From a virus, in the IMG/VR virus record IMGVR_UViG_3300021964_000571, positions 1 through 23,032 of that record: a stretch of DNA of 23,032 nt; one strand, 5' to 3'. A program made the translations under genes and the position numbers. How positions within the stretch are numbered: the first letter of the stretch is position 1; each line of letters opens with the position of its first letter. The notes below the pieces were generated by a model. The model was not told the DNA's origin and searched no databases. It was given only the letters and a program-made list of their open reading frames with translations. Shown one piece after another: positions 3,358 through 23,032 of the stretch.

Positions 3358-6300
3358 TTAACTACATCCTGTTGTTACACCTAAATCACCTTGTCCTGAT
3401 ACTGGTCTACAATCTGTTCCATCAGTATAAAAATACGCAGGAGCAGGATTATTACCAGCCGAATCAGTATATATCTTTGAAGATATTGCAAATACACCTC
3501 CAGATTCAGCACTACCTACATCTACATAAAACGTTCCTGATTGTCCTCCTGGATAGTTACTACAAACTGAAGCACAACTTATACTTCCGTACTCTAAAGT
3601 TACTGGATATGGCCCTGTGTCACCACCACCACCAGAAGCAAGTATACCTATTTCAACAGTAGCTATAGCAGAACAAGCTCCGTCTTTTGTAACCTTATAC
3701 TGAAACGAATCAAAGGTTGTTTCAGATCCATCATGATCATATGTTATAGTTTTATCAGCGTTCACAATCACTGACCCATAAGACGGATACGAGTGAATTG
3801 TAACTGTATGAGTACCTGAAACGGTATCATTAGATAAAACATTAATTGTAGTAGAAGCATCATTAGCTAATCCTGTAACAGTATCGTCAACTACCGTTGG
3901 TAATACGTCAATATAATCATATACTAAATATAAATTATCTGTAGATGAACTTTCAGTAAATGTAAACGTAATACTGTTATCTTCAGAATCAGTTAAATCA
4001 GTTTTTGTAACTGTAGGGAAAGTAGCAGCTGCTATTATATTATCCACAGTTAGATTAGAAGAAGACGAGACTAAATAGCCTAATCTATTACATGTGTTAA
4101 AATCTCCTGTATGATATCCTTTTTGTTTTAAAGAAGACATTGTTATTGATTCTCCATTATTGGGAACATATTCTGAACCCTTAGCTTCTGTAAAACTTTC
4201 GTTTCTAGTAACACCAGAAGAATCAAAGACATCCTCATCAAAGTAATATGATCTAGAACCTACTTTATATCTGTTAATAATAGATTCACTTTCTTCAGCC
4301 GGGTCGTTGACTACTATAATAGTAACTTTTCTTGTAGCCACTACTGGACAAGAATGTGTTAACTGAACATTTCCTGCAGATACAGAAGTTAAAACTACAG
4401 TGGCTTTTCTGTTTGCTGCAATATCTGAATCAGAAAAAGCAACAGTAAAGTTACCAGATCCTGTTAAAGAATTATTGCTTGTTGTTACTCCGTTTATTGT
4501 AACTACTGCATTAAAAGTTCCCCCAGCAACGTAAGCCACAGTAACATTTCCTGCAGATTCTGCATTTAATTCATATGTGTAAGTTTCTGAAGCTTCTGTA
4601 AAGTTTCTAGAAAGTATTGAATCACATTCAAACTGATCATTTACAACTCCAAATGGAGATTGATTCATTGATAATACATATTGATGATGCTTTGGATCGA
4701 AACCACCTATATTAAATGAATTTTTATATTCAAATAAATTGTTTTTAAAGTAAGACTTAAGTCCAAAATAAGATATAGGAGTTATTCCGTCTTGAGAAAG
4801 TCTTAATACTACCCCTCTAGAAGAATCTGCAAAATACATCCTTCCTGCATAGTAGCTAAAACTTTCTGGGTTTTGAGAAATACCATACTCTCCACTAAAA
4901 GGTACATCTTGCCCTAATACATCCTCTATTTTTTGTAGCGAAGCTTGACCGCTTGTGTTGTATAACAAAGCTTTTCCAAACAAAACTTTAGAAACTCTAT
5001 CCTCCTGAAAAACAATTAAATCTGTTTCTCTAGAAAAAAGTTTTTGTATAGACCCAAACTTACTGTCTAATGTTTTTTTAATACCTCTTGAAGAATTAAA
5101 TTCATTCAAGGAGTTATAACTTGTCTCAGCATTATATTTTTGTGAATATATTAAAGTGTTTTTCAAATAAACCCTTTTATATCCATCAAGTAACGCTAAA
5201 TTAGGTCTATAATCTAAATCATAAAAAGGAGATAATCTTTCGTCTCTAATTTGTATACTTTCTACACCATTTCCAAAAGAAAAACAATTACCAACAGTTA
5301 AATCACATATTCCAGGAACTGAAGAAGTTTGTGTTTGTGTGTTACCCACATGAAAACCATTAACAATATCAAAGGTTTGTTCTGTTTCATAGTAAACATC
5401 ACTATCTAAATCTTCAGGATCTGTTTCAAATATTGTAATACCTTCAACTAACATAAGGTTTATTTTAGCATCTAAAAACCCTGTTTCTGTTTGTCTAGTG
5501 TACTCAGTAGTTTGTACATTAACTCTGTGTCTAGTTGCAGACCCTGACCCTGTCTTACTAAATGTTAAATAAAACTGTTCATCTTTATCAGTATAGTAAG
5601 TTTCACCTACTGGTTTTTCCCAAGCCGTTTCTTCTATTAAAAACTTTTCAAATCCTGATGTAGTGGCGTCTCCTGTATAGTCACCCGAAACTATAAATTC
5701 TTTCTCATAATACTTAGAATCATCGCCTTCGGCATCTTGTCTTTCCCAAGCATCAAATTTAATATTGATAATACTACCTTTAGTTATGTTCAAATTAACA
5801 TAATTGGATCCATCTAAATACTGTGCTAATCCAAACTCATCTTTTTCAGGTAATGTTACGTTAGCAAACCCTTGATTAGCTGAACTAAAAAGACCCCAAG
5901 GAATTCTATCGCTTCCTTCGTACTCTGCATAATTATATGGGTTAAAATCCATAGAAAATCCAACAGGTTTTATTTTCATGTAAACGCCTGGTCTTTCTTT
6001 TATAGGATTATCAAAAGCATCTTTATTACCTTCAATCCAGCCCTCATCAGCATCATCTCCATCATATCTTTTAACCTCTTCATCTAATTTAGTTTTGTGT
6101 GAAACTTCTAAAACTTTTACTTTTACCTCTCTGTTTAATGGGCCATTGTCATCAGATTTAACAATCAAATTAGTGCCTTCCTCTACTTTACCAATATTAT
6201 TACCACTAAGTAAAATCCATCTATATAAACCATCTTCGTAGTAAAAAGTACTGTATATGTTATAGTGTAAATTTCTATTTGTTTTTATAAAAAATTTAAA

Positions 6301-8064
6301 TCTATCTGCCCAATACGGAGCTTTGTTATTTACAGTGAGTTTTGCAGAATTTATGTCTACAGCATTTTCAACAGGTACAAATATTTCAGAAGAATCGTTT
6401 CCTACAGTGCTTGTAGTTGGTATAATGGTTGAGTATCTACCATATTTATCTAAATAAACTAAGCCAAACTCATAGCTTCTATTACTTTTTAAAGATAAAT
6501 TATTAGTTGAAGGTCTTAATGTGTACAAAGATTCACTTTGAAACTCAAAGTTTTCTGTAAAAGATGTAGAACTTGTATCAACGTAAATTATAGATGGAGC
6601 TAGTAAGACTATACTCGTAGAAGTTGAAGAATCTACAGAAAACTCTCCATAACTTGTTGTAGAATTATTTGGTGGTGGAGTTGAACTTACATTTTGAACA
6701 AAGTTACCTGTAAGGTATGTAAGAAGCTCTACAAAATCATCAGAGCTTGCTAATTCACTCGCACTTGAATATGTTTTACTTAGTTGTATAGCGTTGTTTC
6801 CAGTAAAAGTTCCGTCAAAATATGTATTTGGGGAGCTTCCTGCCTCATCAGAAGCTAAATCTGCTCCGATCAAAAGATATGACCCTTTACTTAAAGACTT
6901 ATTTGTAAGGTCTAAAGTTAGTTTCCTTTCTGTATTATCAATACTTGTAGTACCTTCTGTTCCTTCTTGAGGAGATGATACTTTTTCTGCCTTATAATCA
7001 ATTCTAATTACATTTGTATCAGTTTCATTTTCTAGCAAATCATACTGACTGGTAATGTTTCCAAAAACTAATCTATTTTCTATAAACTCTTGAGCTTTTG
7101 CAGTAAGAGGTACATCATCAAATATTCTATTTATTTCATCTTTAGGTAATGCTCTATATATTTTTTTATTACTGAATGAAATTGTTTTTTCAACATTATC
7201 TACAAAATAATTTTCTTTTTTATTAATGTTATCTATAACATAAACAATACCCTCTTTTGGGTTTTTAAAACATATTTGAATATCTGTGACTCTTTTATCA
7301 CCCGTGTTATACTTGATTCTATATGCGTTAAACACATTAACCATGGCTTTATTTTCCATGGTGCTAAAATCTAGATCAAAATTACCAGGAATGAATTGAT
7401 AATTAGAAAAAGCAGATAATGCAGAATACTCTCCATCCAAATACTTATATCTATACGCAAATGAAAAAAACCTCTCTTTAACAGAGTTTTCGTCTATTTT
7501 AGGCGTATTATAAGGTGAAACTGTAGGTGCGTTTCTTGGTGGTTTTTTGTAAAGATTTATATCGTCTTCATCAAAATTATTTGTTCCATAACCTTTAGCT
7601 CTTTCAATACTTATACTTCTTGGGGGATTTATACCATCAGTAAACAATAATAAATTTTTATTAGATACTATATTGTAAATTACATCTATACCTGTAATCT
7701 TATTTAATTTATTAAAATTTAAAACTTGATCATCACCAGATCTTGTGTCAGCTAATACAACTGCACTAAATTTTTTTATAACATCATATTCATATATAAA
7801 AGAGTGTCCTGAATCATTAACAACAAACCAATATATTTTTTCATTAGCCTCATCAGAAACAGATCCAATACACATAGGATTGTCTGACTCTGAATTAAAA
7901 GTTAGTTTTGTGTTACCTTTTTCATTCTCTACAGCTCCAACATCGGAACCTTCAGAGTTTAAAACACGAATATTTAAGGCATCAGTATATTCCCCTTTTG
8001 GGACTAACCTTTCGTCAACATCTTTGTTGAGTTTTCCTTTTGAAAAATTACTACTTAATTTCAT
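3358..8064 (-). CDS. Giant tail hub / nozzle (muzzle-like) protein, 1568 aa
   Basis: Residues 11-25 (KLNKDVDERLVPKGE) followed by a DALN motif form an opening I associate with podoviral tail hub proteins (T7 gp12, P22 gp10 and crassvirus muzzle type). Beta-propeller-like strands follow, such as LLLFTDGINPPRSISI (138-153). A second recognisable part near 1010-1085 contains DLIVFQEDRVSKVLFG and NPESFSYYAGRMYFADSSRG, again typical of tail nozzles. A beta-sandwich-like stretch lies near 1150-1260. About residues 1390-1474 form a cadherin/Ig-like repeat (NVLSNDT, then GSVIVNADKTITY, then DSFQYKV) resembling Big_9. A glycine linker leads to an 84-residue cysteine-containing tip ending TTGCS. At 1568 residues it is about twice T7 gp12 and three times P22 gp10. 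It probably forms the tail tube exit and carries host-contacting appendages. Confidence 0.65.
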   Translation of the reverse strand: MKLSSNFSKGKLNKDVDERLVPKGEYTDALNIRVLNSEGSDVGAVENEKGNTKLTFNSESDNPMCIGSVSDEANEKIYWFVVNDSGHSFIYEYDVIKKFSAVVLADTRSGDDQVLNFNKLNKITGIDVIYNIVSNKNLLLFTDGINPPRSISIERAKGYGTNNFDEDDINLYKKPPRNAPTVSPYNTPKIDENSVKERFFSFAYRYKYLDGEYSALSAFSNYQFIPGNFDLDFSTMENKAMVNVFNAYRIKYNTGDKRVTDIQICFKNPKEGIVYVIDNINKKENYFVDNVEKTISFSNKKIYRALPKDEINRIFDDVPLTAKAQEFIENRLVFGNITSQYDLLENETDTNVIRIDYKAEKVSSPQEGTEGTTSIDNTERKLTLDLTNKSLSKGSYLLIGADLASDEAGSSPNTYFDGTFTGNNAIQLSKTYSSASELASSDDFVELLTYLTGNFVQNVSSTPPPNNSTTSYGEFSVDSSTSTSIVLLAPSIIYVDTSSTSFTENFEFQSESLYTLRPSTNNLSLKSNRSYEFGLVYLDKYGRYSTIIPTTSTVGNDSSEIFVPVENAVDINSAKLTVNNKAPYWADRFKFFIKTNRNLHYNIYSTFYYEDGLYRWILLSGNNIGKVEEGTNLIVKSDDNGPLNREVKVKVLEVSHKTKLDEEVKRYDGDDADEGWIEGNKDAFDNPIKERPGVYMKIKPVGFSMDFNPYNYAEYEGSDRIPWGLFSSANQGFANVTLPEKDEFGLAQYLDGSNYVNLNITKGSIINIKFDAWERQDAEGDDSKYYEKEFIVSGDYTGDATTSGFEKFLIEETAWEKPVGETYYTDKDEQFYLTFSKTGSGSATRHRVNVQTTEYTRQTETGFLDAKINLMLVEGITIFETDPEDLDSDVYYETEQTFDIVNGFHVGNTQTQTSSVPGICDLTVGNCFSFGNGVESIQIRDERLSPFYDLDYRPNLALLDGYKRVYLKNTLIYSQKYNAETSYNSLNEFNSSRGIKKTLDSKFGSIQKLFSRETDLIVFQEDRVSKVLFGKALLYNTSGQASLQKIEDVLGQDVPFSGEYGISQNPESFSYYAGRMYFADSSRGVVLRLSQDGITPISYFGLKSYFKNNLFEYKNSFNIGGFDPKHHQYVLSMNQSPFGVVNDQFECDSILSRNFTEASETYTYELNAESAGNVTVAYVAGGTFNAVVTINGVTTSNNSLTGSGNFTVAFSDSDIAANRKATVVLTSVSAGNVQLTHSCPVVATRKVTIIVVNDPAEESESIINRYKVGSRSYYFDEDVFDSSGVTRNESFTEAKGSEYVPNNGESITMSSLKQKGYHTGDFNTCNRLGYLVSSSSNLTVDNIIAAATFPTVTKTDLTDSEDNSITFTFTESSSTDNLYLVYDYIDVLPTVVDDTVTGLANDASTTINVLSNDTVSGTHTVTIHSYPSYGSVIVNADKTITYDHDGSETTFDSFQYKVTKDGACSAIATVEIGILASGGGGDTGPYPVTLEYGSISCASVCSNYPGGQSGTFYVDVGSAESGGVFAISSKIYTDSAGNNPAPAYFYTDGTDCRPVSGQGDLGVTTGCS

Positions 8065-13221: not shown

Positions 13222-15669
13222 TTATAGTATGTTTTTTTGATCCATGTTTTGTAGCAAATTAGCCATAGGGTCTTGTGCTTCTTCCTCTTGTTCTTCAAAG
13301 TTTGTAGGAGGTAAATCTTGTTTTCTTTGAGCAATCATCTTACTTTGTTGTGTTGCTTGCTTTTCAGTTCTCTTGTCTTTCCTATCTTCTTTAAAAGATT
13401 CTTTATTTTTAAAATTCTCTGACTCCATTTGTTTTAACTGTAATTCAAACTGATATTTTAACTGAAGCATTTCTTTTTGTATTTCAGCTTCTTGTTTCAT
13501 TTTTTGTAAATCCAATTGACTTTTTAATTGTTCTAGCTGTGATTCACCTTGAAGCTTCATTTGTGACTCCTGCATTCTCGATTGAGAAGCGGCTTGTGTA
13601 GATTGAATATTAGATTGAGTTTGCATTTGCATGTTAGCTTGTTGCCTTTTCATATCTTCTTGTTCCTTTCTTTGTTTCTTTATTTTAAGAAGGGTATTAG
13701 CTAGTGTTAAATTATTAACCTGTCTAATATCTATAGCATCATCTAAATCTATTTTTTGTGCCTGTATAGATTGTTGTATGTTTTGCTCTAAAAGTTGTTT
13801 TTCTTCTTCATCTGGTTCTAACTCTATAAATATTCCAAAATCATGTAAATGTAAAGTTCTTATATCATTTAATATTTTAAAATTATTTTTACCAATCATT
13901 TTTGCAAAATCATCAGCAAAATTTGAATACTGTAAAATATCAGATAATCTATAAGATAAAGCTTGACATAATTTTCTTGTAATAAACAAACCTGACTGTA
14001 CAATATGTTTTGTAGCGGTATTGCTGTTTAATGCAGCCAGCTTTTGTATCCCTACTAGCGCGTATTGATCTGGTTTACTGCCATCTCTAGCCTCATTAAC
14101 TCCTGTCACAGCCCTAATCATTTGAAGCTGATAATTATACATATTAATCAAACTAGCTATTTTTGCATTAGAACCCGAACTTGTTAATTCTTGAATAGGC
14201 ACTCTAGCGTTGTTAAATTCACCGTCTTCTGTATAACTACGTCCAATTACAGAACCTGTTTGAAAATACATTGATAATGCTTCTGAAGGGTTGTATGAAG
14301 CGCCATTACCCAAATCAACACTGTTTAATCCATCTGCATCAATAAAGACACCGTCTGGTATCATTTTAGAAACAACTTGTTGTAGTTTTAAATGGACTAA
14401 TTGTATCTGATCTGCAAAAGGCATCATTCTTTTAACTAAAGAGTCTATTCTTCCTTTTGACATTTTTATTGCAGACGCAATATATGGAGGTATAGTTTTT
14501 TGAAAAGACGATTTAGGTCTAACCATGTTTTTCATCATCTCCCACTTTAACAAAGTATTTGTTCCTAAAACCATTACACCCTCATACCAAACATCTATTC
14601 TTCTTGCTACTTTTTTAAATCTAGCTTGTTCCGTTTTTGGTGGATTGAAAGAAGCATCCTTCTTTAATGCTTTTTTACCACCATTACTTCCATCTTTAAT
14701 TTTATATACAATCTCTTTATCAGTTTTATATGAAAAATATAATAAAGAAACGTTTGATTTATCTAATCCACTTTGTGATGTTAAATTTTGTGTACTTCTG
14801 TAACCATCATATCTTGAAGCTGTTTTAGCTATTTGCTCTAACTCTTCTTGCTCTAAATATGGATTTATCTTTTTTAATTCTGATACATGTACAGATTTAA
14901 CTTCTCCAAAATAATAACAATCTCTAAAATTTGGATCTTCAGTTTGTGAATAAACAAAATTTACAGGATCTACATACTCTACCTTAACTCCATCATGTAT
15001 GTCAAAATCGTGTTTAAGTACAGATAATCCTAAAACAACATTATCTTCATCTATTCTTCTTTTAGTTTCTTCATAGTCATTAATTTCTAAAATTGTCTTA
15101 AGTGCTGTCTCTTGAGCAACCTCTACACCTTGCTTGTATCTTAGGTTCATATAAAGATCAAGCTCTTCATCAGATTTAGGAATTACAGATTCTTCAAAGT
15201 TAAAAGCGTTTACACCTGTATTGTCTTTTATAATTTTCAATGGCTCATACGCCATCATGTCTGCTCTTAATTCATTTCTGAAATTATCTCTTTCAATAGT
15301 AGAAAACTGATCAACTGCTTCTGCTTTAATATCGTATAATCTATTAGATATACCATTAACTACAATATCTACAAATTTTGGAATAATTGGAACTGGAGTC
15401 CAGTCTAAATTCAAATATGAAAGATCTCCATTAATAGATAATTCATTTTTATACTTCTCAACAGGCTGTTCTCCTCTAGCATACAATCTCCTAGTTAAGA
15501 ACTCTGATCGTATCTCTCCATATAAAGAACTTCCGTAATCTCTTGAAAACCATTCAGACTCTATTGCTCTACCTACACGAAGGCCATATTCTAAACTAGC
15601 TTTTTCTTCATCTGGTGCAAATTGATTTGGAAATCCACTTCCAGAATTGAACTTTGGTTTGTTTATCAT
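13222..15669 (-). CDS. Portal protein, 815 aa
   Basis: The portal forms the dodecameric ring at one capsid vertex through which DNA enters and leaves. Assignment rests on place (2 bases after the large terminase, before scaffold and capsid), length, and layout. An N-terminal part (WTPVPIIPKFVDIVVNGIS, about residues 90-108) is typical of portals of this phage type. The central wing/stem region contains KGRIDSLVKRMMPFADQIQL. A conserved tract follows, PIQELTSSGSNAKIASLINM then QLQMIRAVTGVNEARDGSKP, which resembles the Gly-Asn/Arg-Asp segment of podoviral portals. Residues ~664-785 form a long Gln/Lys/Met-rich helical region (SQLEQLKSQLDLQKMKQEAE), comparable to the C-terminal barrel of P22 portal. 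The protein ends in an acidic tail (FEEQEEEAQD). Confidence 0.8.
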   Translation of the reverse strand: MINKPKFNSGSGFPNQFAPDEEKASLEYGLRVGRAIESEWFSRDYGSSLYGEIRSEFLTRRLYARGEQPVEKYKNELSINGDLSYLNLDWTPVPIIPKFVDIVVNGISNRLYDIKAEAVDQFSTIERDNFRNELRADMMAYEPLKIIKDNTGVNAFNFEESVIPKSDEELDLYMNLRYKQGVEVAQETALKTILEINDYEETKRRIDEDNVVLGLSVLKHDFDIHDGVKVEYVDPVNFVYSQTEDPNFRDCYYFGEVKSVHVSELKKINPYLEQEELEQIAKTASRYDGYRSTQNLTSQSGLDKSNVSLLYFSYKTDKEIVYKIKDGSNGGKKALKKDASFNPPKTEQARFKKVARRIDVWYEGVMVLGTNTLLKWEMMKNMVRPKSSFQKTIPPYIASAIKMSKGRIDSLVKRMMPFADQIQLVHLKLQQVVSKMIPDGVFIDADGLNSVDLGNGASYNPSEALSMYFQTGSVIGRSYTEDGEFNNARVPIQELTSSGSNAKIASLINMYNYQLQMIRAVTGVNEARDGSKPDQYALVGIQKLAALNSNTATKHIVQSGLFITRKLCQALSYRLSDILQYSNFADDFAKMIGKNNFKILNDIRTLHLHDFGIFIELEPDEEEKQLLEQNIQQSIQAQKIDLDDAIDIRQVNNLTLANTLLKIKKQRKEQEDMKRQQANMQMQTQSNIQSTQAASQSRMQESQMKLQGESQLEQLKSQLDLQKMKQEAEIQKEMLQLKYQFELQLKQMESENFKNKESFKEDRKDKRTEKQATQQSKMIAQRKQDLPPTNFEEQEEEAQDPMANLLQNMDQKNIL

Positions 15670-15671
15670 GT

Positions 15672-17888
15672 TTATTTTATAATTTCGCTAACAGAACCTT
15701 TGTTACTGTATTTTGCAAAGTTAACATTTATTTGATTATGTTTTTGTATGTTTGTCCGTTGCTTACTCTGGTTTGCCATTATAGCAAAGCCTGAACTAAC
15801 CGTAGCATCAAATCTAGTTCTATTATTGATATCATAATTAGCCCAATCAAGTAAAGTTCTATTAAAATACAAATTTCCACAAGAACCATAATCAAGATTT
15901 TCAATATCATTTATAACACCAACATGGTTTTCAATATAACCTTCTATAGCTTCAGCGTGTACAGATATTACAGCTTGAGAAGAGGGTATGCCTCCTAACT
16001 CTTTCTCTGATTTCGACAAGGCATTTCTGTGTTTATCAGGTCTGTTAAGGGAAAATCTTCTATATCCTCTTTCTTTTAAATAATACAATAATCTTGGTTT
16101 GTTGTTTTCTACCAATATAGGCATTCCGTAAAAGTGTAAAGCCATTAACACATCTTCATAAAAAATTTCTGCAGTAGGAGGTCTTGATATATACTCAAGA
16201 AAAAAACTATTTGTAGGGCCATCATCCATATGAAACTTAGTCATACCATGTAAAGCACCTTTAGAACCACCACCTCCCACAGTACCTGATATATCATAAG
16301 AGTCACACCCAAAAGCTCCCATATGTAAATTTCCTGGTAGTTTTAAGTTTCCTTTTTGTATTACATTGTTCATAATTTGACCTGAAGGTATCCATGAAAC
16401 AAAAAACCTACCCTTATTATCTGGAGCCCAAATAACTTCAGTGTCTCTTTGTCCATTTTTCCAATAAAAATTACCTCTATAAATATTGCTTTTAATTGCA
16501 AAAGAATCATTGTAATCTATCTGTTCATATATCTTACTAAGATTGAATATTGTATTTTTGGATTCATCTCTAAAAGCATGAGATTCTGTTTTAGGAAACT
16601 GTCTATAAAACTCATTTAAAGCATCTGAATCATTTTTCAAACCTTCTACTTCATTATCCCAACTATCTAAAACACCTGTATCAATTATATCTCCAGCATT
16701 ATCAAATACATCTTCTTCTGGAGTGTCAAATACAGGATATCCATATTCATCAATATAGCCCTCAAAATTCCATTCCATAGGAATAAATAAACTATATAAA
16801 CCAGATTGTGTTTGACCGTTTTTATTTCTTTCTAAAACATTAGAATTATTGTACAGTTTTTTGAAATTTTCCCCTCCCTTATCTAAAGAATTGGAGGTAG
16901 AGCCCATCATGCACTTACCTATTACTTTCGATCCAAGTCTAAGAGTGGTTTTCGTAACTCTCCAGTTATTGAGAATGTTTTCAGGTTTTTCCCATTTTCC
17001 TGCCTCATCATGAACGAGGAGTGAAAGTTTTTCTCCATCGTAGGAGTTGTTACCGGTGTTTTTCCAATCGATCGTTGTGTCAAGTCCGACCATTTCTTGA
17101 ACTTTAGTGTTAGACTCGAGTCTCTTTCGTGTAAATTTCGAAGCGGGTACTCTGTACGCGAGTTCTGTCTTGGGGCGATCCATACCGTCTTGGATGGGTC
17201 TGAAAAAGAATGGATAATTGATCGATATTGGTACCACCTTATCTGTGAACATCTTTTTAGCATCGGCTCCAGATTTGGACAGTATACCGTACCGTGCATC
17301 GGAAGATATGGTTGCCAAGTTAACTGTCTCTGCGGATGCCATAAACGAAAAACCGCTACGTCTGTTCTTGAGATAGCACATTCCATAACACCGCTGATCT
17401 GCTTTACACGCTTCCCAAAAAATAAAGAATAATCTGTTTGCTTCTCGAAAGTCTGGCTTCCCAACATCAATCTTGGTCCACTGCAAGTACATATAGTGAG
17501 AGCCAGTAATATAAGTAGGAATGCCTTTGTTAGTAAACCAATAACCTTCTTCACGCTTTTTAAACTCATTATCTATGTAATTGTGCCATTTATTTTTAAA
17601 ATCATCAGGTAAATCTCTCCAATCAAATATATTATTGATTCTTTTTAATTCTTTTGGGTACTCTTGCCTAGTCCATTTTTTTGTGTTAGCAACATCTTCT
17701 TCTTTAGGTAATGCAATAATTAAGCCTTGAATTGAATATACTTGTGCTATTTGACCTGTTTTGCTTATTATAATAATATCATACTCTTTATTATAACCAT
17801 ATTTCCATGACTTTGATTTGTTTTTTGATTTTAAAACCTTAGTAGGAATTACATCTTTTAATACAGAATATAAAGTTTGTTCATACAT
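15672..17888 (-). CDS. terL: Terminase large subunit, 738 aa
   Basis: This ATP-driven packaging motor and nuclease docks on the portal. In the ATPase domain, residues 174-182 read KNRRSGFSF. The canonical P-loop lysine position is Phe180, while Lys174 lies at the loop start, as in lambda gpA (KSARVGYSK, Lys76). Walker B is LLVHDEAG with Asp294-Glu295, and the coupling motif is GSTSN (329-333). The RNase H-like nuclease supplies Asp529 (GAFGCDSYD), Glu594 (ILVENN) and Asp694 (RFDATVSSGFA), so all key residues appear present. It has about 110 N-terminal residues before the ATPase core, including YDIIIISKTGQIAQVYSIQG (36-55), which make it longer than the usual 500-600. The start overlaps the preceding stop as TAATG. 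Bases ~16860-17505 are markedly richer in GC than the flanks. Confidence 0.93.
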   Translation of the reverse strand: MYEQTLYSVLKDVIPTKVLKSKNKSKSWKYGYNKEYDIIIISKTGQIAQVYSIQGLIIALPKEEDVANTKKWTRQEYPKELKRINNIFDWRDLPDDFKNKWHNYIDNEFKKREEGYWFTNKGIPTYITGSHYMYLQWTKIDVGKPDFREANRLFFIFWEACKADQRCYGMCYLKNRRSGFSFMASAETVNLATISSDARYGILSKSGADAKKMFTDKVVPISINYPFFFRPIQDGMDRPKTELAYRVPASKFTRKRLESNTKVQEMVGLDTTIDWKNTGNNSYDGEKLSLLVHDEAGKWEKPENILNNWRVTKTTLRLGSKVIGKCMMGSTSNSLDKGGENFKKLYNNSNVLERNKNGQTQSGLYSLFIPMEWNFEGYIDEYGYPVFDTPEEDVFDNAGDIIDTGVLDSWDNEVEGLKNDSDALNEFYRQFPKTESHAFRDESKNTIFNLSKIYEQIDYNDSFAIKSNIYRGNFYWKNGQRDTEVIWAPDNKGRFFVSWIPSGQIMNNVIQKGNLKLPGNLHMGAFGCDSYDISGTVGGGGSKGALHGMTKFHMDDGPTNSFFLEYISRPPTAEIFYEDVLMALHFYGMPILVENNKPRLLYYLKERGYRRFSLNRPDKHRNALSKSEKELGGIPSSQAVISVHAEAIEGYIENHVGVINDIENLDYGSCGNLYFNRTLLDWANYDINNRTRFDATVSSGFAIMANQSKQRTNIQKHNQINVNFAKYSNKGSVSEIIK
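16860..17505 (-). other. High-GC block with foreign codon use inside terL
   Basis: Hand counts over 60-base lines give about 35-50% GC (mostly 42-45%) for 16861-17520. The two lines just below (16741-16860) give 27%, and 17521-17700 give 23-33%. Codon choice changes too: CTC, CGT, CGA, CGG, CGC, TCG, GCG, ACG and CCC are common here, whereas flanking terminase sequence mostly uses TTA, AGA and A/T-ending codons. The reading frame is uninterrupted. The block encodes about residues 128-343, the P-loop, Walker B and coupling motif. It looks imported or chimeric. Confidence 0.7.
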
Positions 17889-18169
17889 TACTTCGATCTT
17901 CTTTCAGCAAAACCACTAAAAGTTTTGTTTTCTTTTTCTAATGGTTTATTCTCAATATAACTATTTTCTTCTTCTATTCTTGTAAGTATTTCAAAAGCAT
18001 CAAATATTGCTAACTTTTTGGTAGCCGCTGCATTTTTTAATCTATCTGCAGCTAATTCATCTTCAGGGTCTGGTTTTATAATTTCTTCTTCTGCAACTCT
18101 TATAAGTTGATTTACAGCTTCATAACCTGCTTTTATAATTCTTTTTTTAATATCATTTATATCTTTCAT
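17888..18169 (-). CDS. Putative terminase small subunit, 93 aa
   Basis: The predicted start is the ATG at 18169, giving MKDINDIKKRIIKAG. An upstream in-frame ATG at 18190 would add seven residues and overlap the previous gene, whereas 18169 leaves a 2-base gap. The protein looks all-helical and charged, with a conserved-looking core ADRLKNAAATKKLAIFDAFE (about 43-62). Its stop overlaps the large terminase start (TAATG), so the two are translationally coupled. Small terminase subunits recognise viral DNA and regulate the large subunit; place and helical make-up fit. I see no obvious helix-turn-helix, and at 93 residues it is short for the family, so the function is inferred mainly from position. 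Confidence 0.55.
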   Translation of the reverse strand: MKDINDIKKRIIKAGYEAVNQLIRVAEEEIIKPDPEDELAADRLKNAAATKKLAIFDAFEILTRIEEENSYIENKPLEKENKTFSGFAERRSK

Positions 18170-18171
18170 AA

Positions 18172-18732
18172 TCAATTTAGAACAGTACATATATCAATAG
18201 TCCTCATTCTATATAAAGTTTCATTGTTTATTTGAAACTCATATTCACTATCCTTTGTAAAATTAACTTTATCTCCTTTTTTTACACCTAATTTATCAAG
18301 AGTGTTGTTAGAGTATTTAATTATACCTGTGTGGTTTTCAGAACCTTCTTCATAAAGATAAGAATTTTCTTTTTCAATAGGTTTTACAAAACAATATTGA
18401 CCAACAGCATTCCACTGTTCACAATCATGATACAGGTAAAACTGATATGGGTCTATAAAATATATGTTATTTTTAAAATAATTTGGGGATTTTCTAGGTC
18501 TTCCCTTCATATCATAATAAATACGAAAAATATTATGATGAACAATTAATGTGTCTCCAGGTTTAATTTTACCTTTATAAGTATAAGGACATTGTATTAC
18601 TTCAGCAAACCTATTTACATTGATGTGGTTTTCTACAGTAGAGTTTATAATTATTTTTTCTCCTGCTAATTCTATCTCATTATTATAAGCTTCTCCTTTT
18701 GGTTTTATAAGGAAAAAAAATGGAGATTTCAT
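18172..18732 (-). CDS. Putative tandem GroES-like co-chaperonin, 186 aa
   Basis: Two stretches each resemble the GroES fold. In the second (residues ~108-186), FVKPIEK is followed by an acidic/polar loop, then HTGIIKYS, comparable to the GroES mobile loop (GGIVL) or T4 gp31. It continues GVKKGDKVNFTKDSEYEFQI and then ETLYRMRTIDICTVL, matching the GroES C-terminal pattern of 'V-x-x-G-D-x-V-x-F', 'E-x-x-I-x-G/N-x-E-Y-L', 'x-x-D-I-x-A-V'. In the first (~4-100), FFFLIKPKG, AGEKIIINS, NRFAEVIQCP and IKPGDTLIVHHNIFRI give the same series, ending in DPYQFYLYH. A double domain resembles plastid Cpn20 in layout only. It probably works with host GroEL to fold virion proteins. It shares a TAATG junction with the upstream gene. 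Confidence 0.55.
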   Translation of the reverse strand: MKSPFFFLIKPKGEAYNNEIELAGEKIIINSTVENHINVNRFAEVIQCPYTYKGKIKPGDTLIVHHNIFRIYYDMKGRPRKSPNYFKNNIYFIDPYQFYLYHDCEQWNAVGQYCFVKPIEKENSYLYEEGSENHTGIIKYSNNTLDKLGVKKGDKVNFTKDSEYEFQINNETLYRMRTIDICTVLN

Positions 18733-18956
18733 TAAAAATTTATATTATACTCAATAGAGACAGGTATGTTTTTATTGAACTCTTTCCATGCAAAAACCTC
18801 GTCTCCTTTTTGTATCCATACAACAAAAGACTCAGTTTCTTTTTTGTAATCTATTAAGTGTATTGTATGAGTTCCGTTAAGAATATATTGGCCTACTATA
18901 TAGTGCATAGCACTAGACTTATAGTCTGCCCCTATAGAAATCTTACGGATTTCCAT
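18732..18956 (-). CDS. Small conserved unknown protein, 74 aa
   Basis: I recognise the general pattern (ISIGADYKSSAMHYIVGQYI at 6-25, WKEFNKN and EYNINF at the end) as one that recurs in marine flavobacterial phages near the terminase genes, but know no function for it. It looks beta-rich and soluble, with no signal peptide, membrane segment or metal-binding motif. It starts 2 bases after the stop of the 84-residue gene and overlaps the GroES-like gene by one base, so it is certainly in the same operon. The shared unit with terminase and a co-chaperonin suggests a role in particle assembly; this is position only. Confidence 0.55.
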   Translation of the reverse strand: MEIRKISIGADYKSSAMHYIVGQYILNGTHTIHLIDYKKETESFVVWIQKGDEVFAWKEFNKNIPVSIEYNINF

Positions 18957-20272: not shown

Positions 20273-23032
20273 TTATTTTTTTAATTGTTTTATTTCTTGT
20301 TTTAAACTATCAACTTCAGCTTTTAAATCTTTAATGGCTTCAATAAATACACCAGCCATTTTACCATAATCAACTCCATATTTATCATCATCTTCATTAT
20401 ATAAAACAACCTCTGGCAACACTTCATTAACCTCTTGTGCTATAACACCAATTTTATTTGACTTGTCATCAATATCAGTTCTATTGTAGCTAACACCTCT
20501 TAATTTAGATATTTTTTCTAAACCATTGTCAATGGTTTTTATATTTGTTTTAACTCTTTTATCTGAAAATGCAATTACATCACCAGCCGCAGTCATTGAA
20601 CCGACAACACTTAAATCACCGCCAGCATTTAAAGTCATTTTAGTTGATAAACCAGCGCCATTGTTTCTAACTTGAAATTTTAAACCAGATGAATAATTAC
20701 CAACAGTTGAATTTGTTTTATACATTCTAATAATAGCACCCTCTGTGTAACTAGTGCTAGAATATCTATAACCTAAAACTAACTGACCACCAACACCAGC
20801 ACCATTGCCAGTTGTGCTATCATAATGAGCCAAACCACTACGAACATTATCACTTGATCCAATAGCAGAAATTGTCACAGATGTACCAGCAACATAAAAT
20901 TTAGGAGTTGGTACACAACATTCGGGTGCTGTTGTCGTTCCACACATTACCATCCCATTTGAATTTAAATATATCCCTTTTGCTGAATCATTATTTACAA
21001 AGATTGCTAAATTACTAGCTGTTGTTGTTCTTATAGAGTTTGAATCTAATCTAAGTTTTTGGTTATTACTACTATGTAATAAAATATCAGCATCACCGCT
21101 AGTGCTTCTAATATGTAGCATTTCAGATTGTGTTGATCCAACACCAATAGTAACTTTGCCACCACTAGGATTTATCCAAGTATTACCAGTTGCTCTATCT
21201 AATTGAACATGCTGAGTTTGTGTGCCATCTAATAAAGAATACAATGATGTTATATTAGATGCCTCATCATACCACATACCACCACCATAAGTAGTTGTGC
21301 CACTATCATAAAAACCAACATATTTTTTTGTGGCAGATGGTACGTTTATGCCAATGCCACTATAACCCTCAACAAAAGCATCAACACCCATATTTAAAGT
21401 AAGTGAGCCATTGCTTCTGAATTTAGCATTTGTGACACCACCAGACATTATATCTAAATCAGCAGTCGCTAAACAAACCATATTTGTCGATGCTGTACCA
21501 ATTCCCCATTGTTTTAAACCAAAACCACCTCTAAAAGTTGAGCCATTATAGAATCTTAAAGCCGATGCAGTTACATTTGTTATATCAATAAATCCATTTA
21601 CTTGTAATGCTTGACCTGTTTGATTGCCAGAGCTGTTTATTAATAAAAAACCATTTGGATCAAATTTAGCTCTATAAGTTCCGTTAGTATGAAACTCAAT
21701 ACTTCTACTAGTACCATAGCTAATTAAACCTAATCTTGCATCTCTGCCATCAATACGAGCAAATAAACTTGTATCTGCATTGTTAGCAAAATTTATTTCA
21801 GAAATGTTATCAGATGAACGCCCTCTAATACCAATAGCATGAGCTGAGGAATTTGCTGTAATATTTAAAGGATAGCCAGTTCTTAAAGTACCACCACTAA
21901 GTAAGGATAATTGACCAGATGCGGTTAAAACCATTTTATAACCATCCGACTCACCACTTGTACCAACATTTGTTAAGTGCCACCCTAAATTATTATCATT
22001 AGCACCACCACTAGTGCCTTGAGCAATTGTACTCCATTGAACACCAGTGCTTACACTAAATAAAGTAATTCCTGAGCCAGTATTGCTATCAGATATAAAA
22101 GCTGATGTGTTCCAAGTTGAATCATCTCTAACTTGAAACTTATAACCACTACTACTTGTTTGACCAATTGCTACTGGACCGCTATTAAAATAACTTATAT
22201 CATTAGCTCTAAATTGTATTGTTTTCGTACCAGCATAATACATTCCCTGATAACCTTCGTTAGAAAACCATTGTTCAGCTTCCCATAATTTGCCACCAGT
22301 TGTAATAATATCAATACCAGCTATTCCCATACTTGAACTACCTACTGTTAATGTTTTATCTGGTGCTGAATTATTGCCAATACCAACTTTGCCATCATTT
22401 AATATTGTTAATACATTCTGTCCCGCTGTCCAACTATATATATCAAATCTATCAGCACCAGAACCATTGCCAACTCTTGTTTGCCATTTTACAGAACCAT
22501 TTAAACTATATCTGTAATGTGATTGACCAACAGCATCAACATTTACACCAGTAAAATAATTACCACTAGAGCTAGTATTTTTTATTGTTAATGCGGAAAA
22601 TGGCTCAGCACTTAAATTAGTATGTTGTATATGTAATGGTGATACTGGTGATGCCAAACCTATGCCCACAAAACCAGCTTCATCAATAGTTAATTTTGCA
22701 TTAGCCGCTGTTACTGATGTGTTATTTGCACTACCATTGACTGCTAAATGTAATTTACCCACTCCAAATAATGCAGTTCGTTGAAAAAAGATACCTCCTT
22801 TTGCTCTTAAATCTGAATTTGGCTCACCATCTTCGGCTCTTAATAATATACCAGCTGTATCACCAACAGTATCAGATGCACCAGTAATTAAAACTTGACT
22901 TCCAGTTGCACCCTCAATATGCAATGGTTTTTGTGGTGTGGTTGTTGCCAATCCTAAAAATCCACTTGGATTTAATGTCATTTTAGTTGATAAATCATCG
23001 CCAGTATTACGAACTTGAAATTTTAATCCTGA
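20273..23032 (-). CDS. Tail fibre with C-terminal S74 self-cleaving chaperone (5' end outside window)
   Basis: The frame is open to base 23032, 17 codons upstream of the first ATG (22981), and those codons read as real fibre sequence. The gene is therefore truncated at its 5' end; 919 residues are visible. Repeats of the 'VGIGxxxPxxxLHI' type common in S74 fibres occur at about residues 25-39 (FLGLATTTPQKPLHI), 121-135 (FVGIGLASPVSPLHI), 215-230 and near 625. They suit a trimeric beta shaft. At the C-terminus SDKRVKTNIKTIDNGLEKIS (from Ser823) opens the peptidase S74 intramolecular chaperone. Ser823 and Lys828 have the spacing of the known Ser/Lys dyad, and IGVIAQEVNEVLPEVV follows. The end is a coiled coil (LKAEVDSLKQEIKQLKK). 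The chaperone should cleave itself off just before Ser823 after trimerisation. The fibre probably binds the host surface. Confidence 0.85.
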   Translation of the reverse strand, partial: SGLKFQVRNTGDDLSTKMTLNPSGFLGLATTTPQKPLHIEGATGSQVLITGASDTVGDTAGILLRAEDGEPNSDLRAKGGIFFQRTALFGVGKLHLAVNGSANNTSVTAANAKLTIDEAGFVGIGLASPVSPLHIQHTNLSAEPFSALTIKNTSSSGNYFTGVNVDAVGQSHYRYSLNGSVKWQTRVGNGSGADRFDIYSWTAGQNVLTILNDGKVGIGNNSAPDKTLTVGSSSMGIAGIDIITTGGKLWEAEQWFSNEGYQGMYYAGTKTIQFRANDISYFNSGPVAIGQTSSSGYKFQVRDDSTWNTSAFISDSNTGSGITLFSVSTGVQWSTIAQGTSGGANDNNLGWHLTNVGTSGESDGYKMVLTASGQLSLLSGGTLRTGYPLNITANSSAHAIGIRGRSSDNISEINFANNADTSLFARIDGRDARLGLISYGTSRSIEFHTNGTYRAKFDPNGFLLINSSGNQTGQALQVNGFIDITNVTASALRFYNGSTFRGGFGLKQWGIGTASTNMVCLATADLDIMSGGVTNAKFRSNGSLTLNMGVDAFVEGYSGIGINVPSATKKYVGFYDSGTTTYGGGMWYDEASNITSLYSLLDGTQTQHVQLDRATGNTWINPSGGKVTIGVGSTQSEMLHIRSTSGDADILLHSSNNQKLRLDSNSIRTTTASNLAIFVNNDSAKGIYLNSNGMVMCGTTTAPECCVPTPKFYVAGTSVTISAIGSSDNVRSGLAHYDSTTGNGAGVGGQLVLGYRYSSTSYTEGAIIRMYKTNSTVGNYSSGLKFQVRNNGAGLSTKMTLNAGGDLSVVGSMTAAGDVIAFSDKRVKTNIKTIDNGLEKISKLRGVSYNRTDIDDKSNKIGVIAQEVNEVLPEVVLYNEDDDKYGVDYGKMAGVFIEAIKDLKAEVDSLKQEIKQLKK
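20618..20689 (-). repeat. Internal fibre repeat, C-terminal copy
   Basis: Encodes SGLKFQVRNNGAGLSTKMTL plus NAGG, just before the S74 domain. It matches the segment at the window edge (22961-23032), SGLKFQVRNTGDDLSTKMTL plus NPSG, with five amino-acid differences and many synonymous changes. Confidence 0.8.
22961..23032 (-). repeat. Internal fibre repeat, N-terminal copy (window edge)
   Basis: Encodes SGLKFQVRNTGDDLSTKMTL plus NPSG, the partner of 20618-20689. It shows that codons upstream of the ATG at 22981 are coding, so that ATG is not the true start. More copies may lie outside the window. Confidence 0.8.

Follow-up and report, generated by a model that had tools for sequence, protein, structure and literature searches.

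Gene organization of the locus

The window, the whole stretch of 23,032 nucleotides analysed here, is a 23-kb virus fragment from IMG/VR. At 18172–18732 its minus strand carries an intact open reading frame with an ATG start, and the plus strand across the same positions is packed with stops. The encoded protein of 186 residues, referred to below as the tandem GroES, lies in an operon with the order tail fibre, small genes, a 74-residue gene, the tandem GroES gene, a 100-residue gene, terminase, portal, an acidic 384-residue protein (scaffold-like by position only) and a capsid-type structural protein that matches PHROG 13704 (Table 1). An earlier note, made from these letters alone, had placed a GroES-fold gene in a phage assembly operon, and the adjoining packaging genes agree with this: terminase comes after the tandem GroES gene in every one of the 102 loci with room for it. 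The order up74, tandem GroES, (TerS), TerL is likewise conserved across related loci, where the loci counted were chosen by the tandem GroES gene alone and all come from related phages. The distance from the tandem GroES gene to terminase varies among loci (L038, L044, L053 and similar ones, and L077), being about 250 b, 590–1090 b or, in L077, 2.9 kb, which suggests inserted genes.

Table 1. Features at and around the tandem GroES gene, in window coordinates
Feature	Position	Strand	Evidence
Conserved 74-aa gene, immediately before the tandem GroES gene, 1-base overlap	18732..18956	-	adjacent homologue in 106/109 loci with room
Tandem GroES-type co-chaperonin (predicted), 186 aa	18172..18732	-	ORF; PHROG 13932 E 3e-23; AlphaFold2 pLDDT 83, pTM 0.74; Foldseek best match 7ekq_R E 2.3e-5
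N-terminal GroES-type domain (predicted), residues 1-105	18418..18732	-	own model pLDDT 83; GroES = top PDB matches; profile above 299/300 column shuffles; relatives' N-halves match PHROG 3188
N-domain mobile-loop position, residues 12-41, GEKIII; in relatives GGI-D/E-F/L-I or SGL-V/I-L	18610..18699	-	between strands 7-11 and 42-47; confidence 67-71 at 11-40
N-domain conserved insert, residues 65-87, HHNxF-R/K ... KGRxxxGxS, absent from the C-domain	18472..18540	-	invariant H65, H66, N67, G77
C-terminal GroES-type domain, residues 106-186 plus stop	18172..18417	-	hhalign against GroES profile P 6.6e-12, 82 columns; Pfam Cpn10 above cut-off in C-halves of three relatives
C-domain mobile-loop position, residues 119-134, short in the window protein; canonical ETKMIGSIIVPN in L111	18331..18378	-	lowest model confidence, pLDDT<50 at 128-130
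HTGIIKYS, residues 134-141, strand after the loop	18310..18333	-	DSSP strand 135-140; hhalign register
100-aa gene separating the tandem GroES gene from terminase; position alone suggests a small terminase	17888..18190	-	homologue in 75/102 loci
Terminase large subunit	15672..17888	-	PHROG 6681 E 1.7e-167; downstream in 102/102 loci
Portal protein	13222..15669	-	PHROG 6547 E 3e-158

The two small genes that flank the tandem GroES gene have no assigned family. The 74-residue protein follows the pattern M-x-IRKIS-x-G-x-DYK...AMHY-x-VGQ...LWKEF...EYNINF and finds no confident family, its phi38:1 version reaching PHROG 467 only at E 0.006; an assignment to the PHROG 904 excisionases was discarded since the match was not significant. 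We regard its product as a candidate partner for the tandem GroES. The 100-residue gene overlaps the tandem GroES gene by 19 bases, and Pfam and PHROG profile searches gave it no significant family match. Elsewhere in the window, the tail-fibre gene (20273–23032, minus strand) is cut by the window end and matches many phage tail-fibre families in its C-terminal part, and a 1568-residue protein (3358–8064, minus strand) matches the virion structural proteins of PHROG 14478 at E 3e-286. PADLOC found zero defence proteins.

Predicted fold of the two halves

The AlphaFold2 model, built on an alignment of 93 relatives with rows from the window and IMG/VR loci only, has its weak stretches at residues 11–40 and 121–130. 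Searched against the PDB with Foldseek, the whole protein matched chains R and Q of 7ekq (CrClpP-S2c) best, 7ekq_R over 205 columns at a query TM of 0.58, followed by single GroES chains and then, weakly, by T4 gp31 (1g31, E 0.12). We take 7ekq to be the Chlamydomonas ClpP complex with plastid co-chaperonins, whose chains of ~200 residues fit tandem Cpn20/23; read in this way, the match upholds Cpn20 as the analogue that the earlier note had named. The model shows two GroES-type domains in tandem, as had been proposed for an AlphaFold check, with the N-terminal half weak by sequence. The 'GD' strand motifs claimed for both halves are present, in IKPGD (59–60) and VKKGD (153–154), and G59, D60 and G153 are nearly invariant among the aligned relatives. 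A 304-residue viral protein, BFVD A0A516L046, also matches the fold (TMq 0.77) and is possibly a longer GroES-type fusion.

Judged by profile comparison, the C-terminal half is a clear Cpn10 homologue: its hhalign score against the GroES profile was reached by no shuffle. Positions 49–92 of Pfam Cpn10 (PF00166) align with residues 141–184 at 17.4 bits, under the curated cut-off of 21.1, in keeping with the near-standard C-terminal strand set described earlier; the C-halves of phi38:1, L111 and phi19:3 exceed this cut-off. Foldseek matches to GroES support the barrel. Hints of a MazE/AbrB or double-psi barrel for this half were dropped, as the fold search gives GroES.

For the N-terminal half, Pfam has zero matches, single N-halves score near background against the GroES profile, and the comparison of N and C profiles as an internal repeat fails to reach significance, with 16 of 300 shuffles doing as well. 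The first and last of these results would suit a protein in which only the C-half is GroES-like and the N-half is some other beta-barrel. However, when the N-half is modelled alone, GroES chains lead the PDB matches with probabilities of 1.00–0.80 (best 8wuw_a, probability 1.00, E 0.015), and non-GroES folds stay at or below 0.20 among the matches listed. The N-half profile also aligns with the GroES profile in the right register (P 0.005), a score equalled by one of 300 column shuffles. Four Elemovirus-like N-halves match PHROG 3188, the single-domain phage GroES, at marginal values (best E 6e-4, others 0.012–0.033) and in a shared register, which places N-half residues 14/18–65 on positions 14/18–70. 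Finally, the whole protein fits a tandem-length chain across the 205 columns noted above. We therefore take the N-half as GroES-type, because the predicted fold and the weak sequence signals combine, and consider a different barrel very unlikely.

Family and distribution

The protein matches PHROG 13932, 'co-chaperonin GroES', over its full length (residues 13–184 of 186, E 3.4e-23). This profile has 200 positions and already bears the GroES label, so the implication in the earlier note that phage co-chaperonins are single-domain only does not stand. Relatives are known in Callevirus (phi38:1), Elemovirus, Maribacter phage Panino and Manatee Spring podovirus and, more distantly, in Baltivirus; in RefSeq the genes of phi38:1, Elemovirus and Baltivirus bear the name 'co-chaperonin GroES'. 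In IMG/VR a relative is encoded by at least 588 candidate stretches, and the carriers are a family of Bacteroidetes phages. Used as a query against viral contigs, the Panino protein retrieved zero relatives, and a PDB sequence search with the window protein returned chance matches only. In the literature searched, the coverage of which left most subscription journals outside, we found the tandem layout of phage GroES described nowhere, nor any text on the tandem layout of PHROG 13932 or on its occurrence alongside a second GroES. The family is already annotated in databases as GroES; its tandem architecture and gene set seem undescribed.

Mobile loops, insert and missing roof

The N-domain loop reads GG-I/V-D/E-F/L-I in most relatives and GEKIII in the window protein, unlike GGIVL. 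It is GroES-like in Elemovirus-like phages (NGLIL, SGLVL; SGLVLNTS in L125) and in phi19:3 (ESGLELHAD). The C-domain loop of the window lineage is short and has no G-hydrophobic motif; that of L111 is GroES-like (IGSIIVPNSGETHKG), and its ETKMIGSIIVPNSGETHKG resembles EEKTIGGIIIPDTAKEK, the loop of Bacteroidetes GroES. The segment HTGIIKYS, earlier read as a mobile loop, is instead a strand in the model and aligns with the GroES strand that follows the loop. The hydrophobic GroEL-contact motif is clear in other branches and altered in the window lineage, where the loops are low-confidence in the model and occupy the sites at which GroES has the mobile loops that bind GroEL. Since each domain has a GroES-like loop in some branch, the sequences suggest an ancestor with two such loops and later specialisation of the lineages.

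Neither domain has a roof hairpin. The most invariant residues of the protein, H65, H66, N67 and G77, sit in an N-domain insert that GroES lacks, hinting at an additional role.

Chaperonin partners

Over 6.5 kb, another contig shares 96.4% identity with the window. At its end, ~20 kb from the tandem gene on the upstream side, it carries GroEL as an open frame of 487 codons and, beside that, a single-domain GroES of 92 residues with the loop ELGLIIS. The window ends 4.3 kb upstream of the tandem gene, so that the absence of GroEL there may reflect truncation. The remark in the earlier note that no GroEL is encoded here thus holds for the window fragment and fails for its close relatives; the need for host GroEL that it drew from this is not borne out, as related phages encode GroEL and a second, single-domain GroES. 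Of 21 long contigs that carry the tandem gene, GroEL is found in 17 and a separate single-domain GroES in 18. A first set of 11 records, which includes short fragments and two records (phi38:1, Calle_1) that recur among the 21 under IMG/VR names, has both genes in seven. All of these come from one broad phage lineage, and their co-occurrence is therefore not independent evidence.

GroEL was not detected in four of the 21 long contigs; three of these are without any Cpn10 match, and the fourth, G021, carries both types of GroES. In Baltivirus phi19:3, too, both types are present and GroEL was not found. These two exceptions argue that the tandem protein has no strict need for a phage GroEL. W06 (NC_021789) and G021, with both GroES types and GroEL not detected, may use host GroEL, or their GroEL may be too divergent or absent from the contig.

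In Elemovirus, Callevirus and window-like phages (L019/L107, L108, L106), a divergent phage GroEL of ~520–540 residues has a single-domain GroES adjacent to it. The GroEL/GroES pair of phi38:1 is on the opposite strand, close to replication genes, a separate location that could mean separate rings at different times as an alternative to a mixed ring. The phi38:1 GroEL has been reported from infected cells and from virions (PMC13288928). Taken together, these gene sets suggest that the carrier phages possess a chaperonin of their own, closed by an unusual lid.

Function of the tandem protein

We think it probable that the window protein is a double-domain GroES-type co-chaperonin with a layout like that of plastid Cpn20, a late product of the packaging operon that caps a GroEL ring during the folding of virion proteins. 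Made late from this operon, it would cap the phage's own GroEL, or the host's where the phage lacks one, and the clients enclosed under the cap would be virion proteins, for example the capsid protein of ~50 kDa, the portal or the terminase. In the window lineage, the N-domain loop would probably make most of the GroEL contacts, leaving the C-domain mainly a barrel. Less surely, three tandem subunits together with a single-domain one could occupy the seven positions of the ring.

In phi40:1 and phi18:3, the depositors' note of detection in virions by MS/MS stands on the portal and other structural proteins and is absent from the tandem GroES (phi40:1 gp089, phi18:3 gp096) and the terminase-position gene, which fits an assembly factor. 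Such a factor could also be a GroES-fold protein outside the chaperonin cycle, acting on terminase or portal through the N-domain insert while the single GroES serves GroEL. The invariant HHN...G insert unlike anything in GroES, the strict linkage to TerL, the degenerate C-loop of the window lineage and a normal GroES beside GroEL that makes a second seem superfluous would all suit this alternative. However, the loop positions are still flexible with hydrophobic motifs kept, and canonical loops survive in either domain in other branches, where a non-chaperonin role would not maintain them; we hold it to be fairly unlikely. That the protein is a virion structural component with a borrowed GroES barrel is most improbable, for although its gene lies among late structural genes, both isolate proteins are without the MS/MS note that many of their neighbours bear.

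Returning to the co-chaperonin reading, the gene set resembles that of the plastid in pairing a tandem with a single-domain protein, which makes a ring of three tandem subunits and one single subunit a natural idea. Such a hetero-heptameric lid on the phage GroEL, evolved in parallel with that of plastid Cpn10/Cpn20, might create a cage whose asymmetry suits capsid, portal or terminase; we put it forward tentatively, as an unlikely elaboration.

Comparison with known systems

The closest known proteins are the PHROG 13932 members (phi38:1 gp089, phi18:3 gp096, Elemovirus gp30), full-length homologues of the same length and in the same position before terminase, which differ from the window protein solely by divergence, its identity to the isolates being 25–41%. 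Bacterial GroES and Pfam Cpn10 share the C-domain homology and the barrel fold, whereas the window protein is tandem, falls under the Pfam cut-off and has no roof hairpin. T4 gp31 is a phage co-chaperonin for virion assembly, like the role proposed here, and is without a roof loop (PMC6318259), as are both domains of the phage tandem. It differs in being single-domain and a user of host GroEL, and is a weak fold match here.

Why GroES domains fuse despite a ring of seven positions is still debated, a discussion that has until now concerned plastids and apicoplasts. The culturable phages phi38:1, Elemovirus and phi18:3, with tandem GroES, single GroES and often GroEL, offer a small, deletable system for it, and could show which of the virion proteins rely on a dedicated chaperonin. 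Plastid Cpn20/Cpn21/Cpn23 likewise consist of two Cpn10-type domains head to tail; the tandem Cpn20 coexists with a single-domain Cpn10, and the two probably form hetero-oligomers of seven domains (PMC5780408). The plastid proteins are only ~15% identical to the phage protein, and the extra conserved N-domain insert belongs to the phage. The phage tandem is probably a fusion independent of that in plastids.
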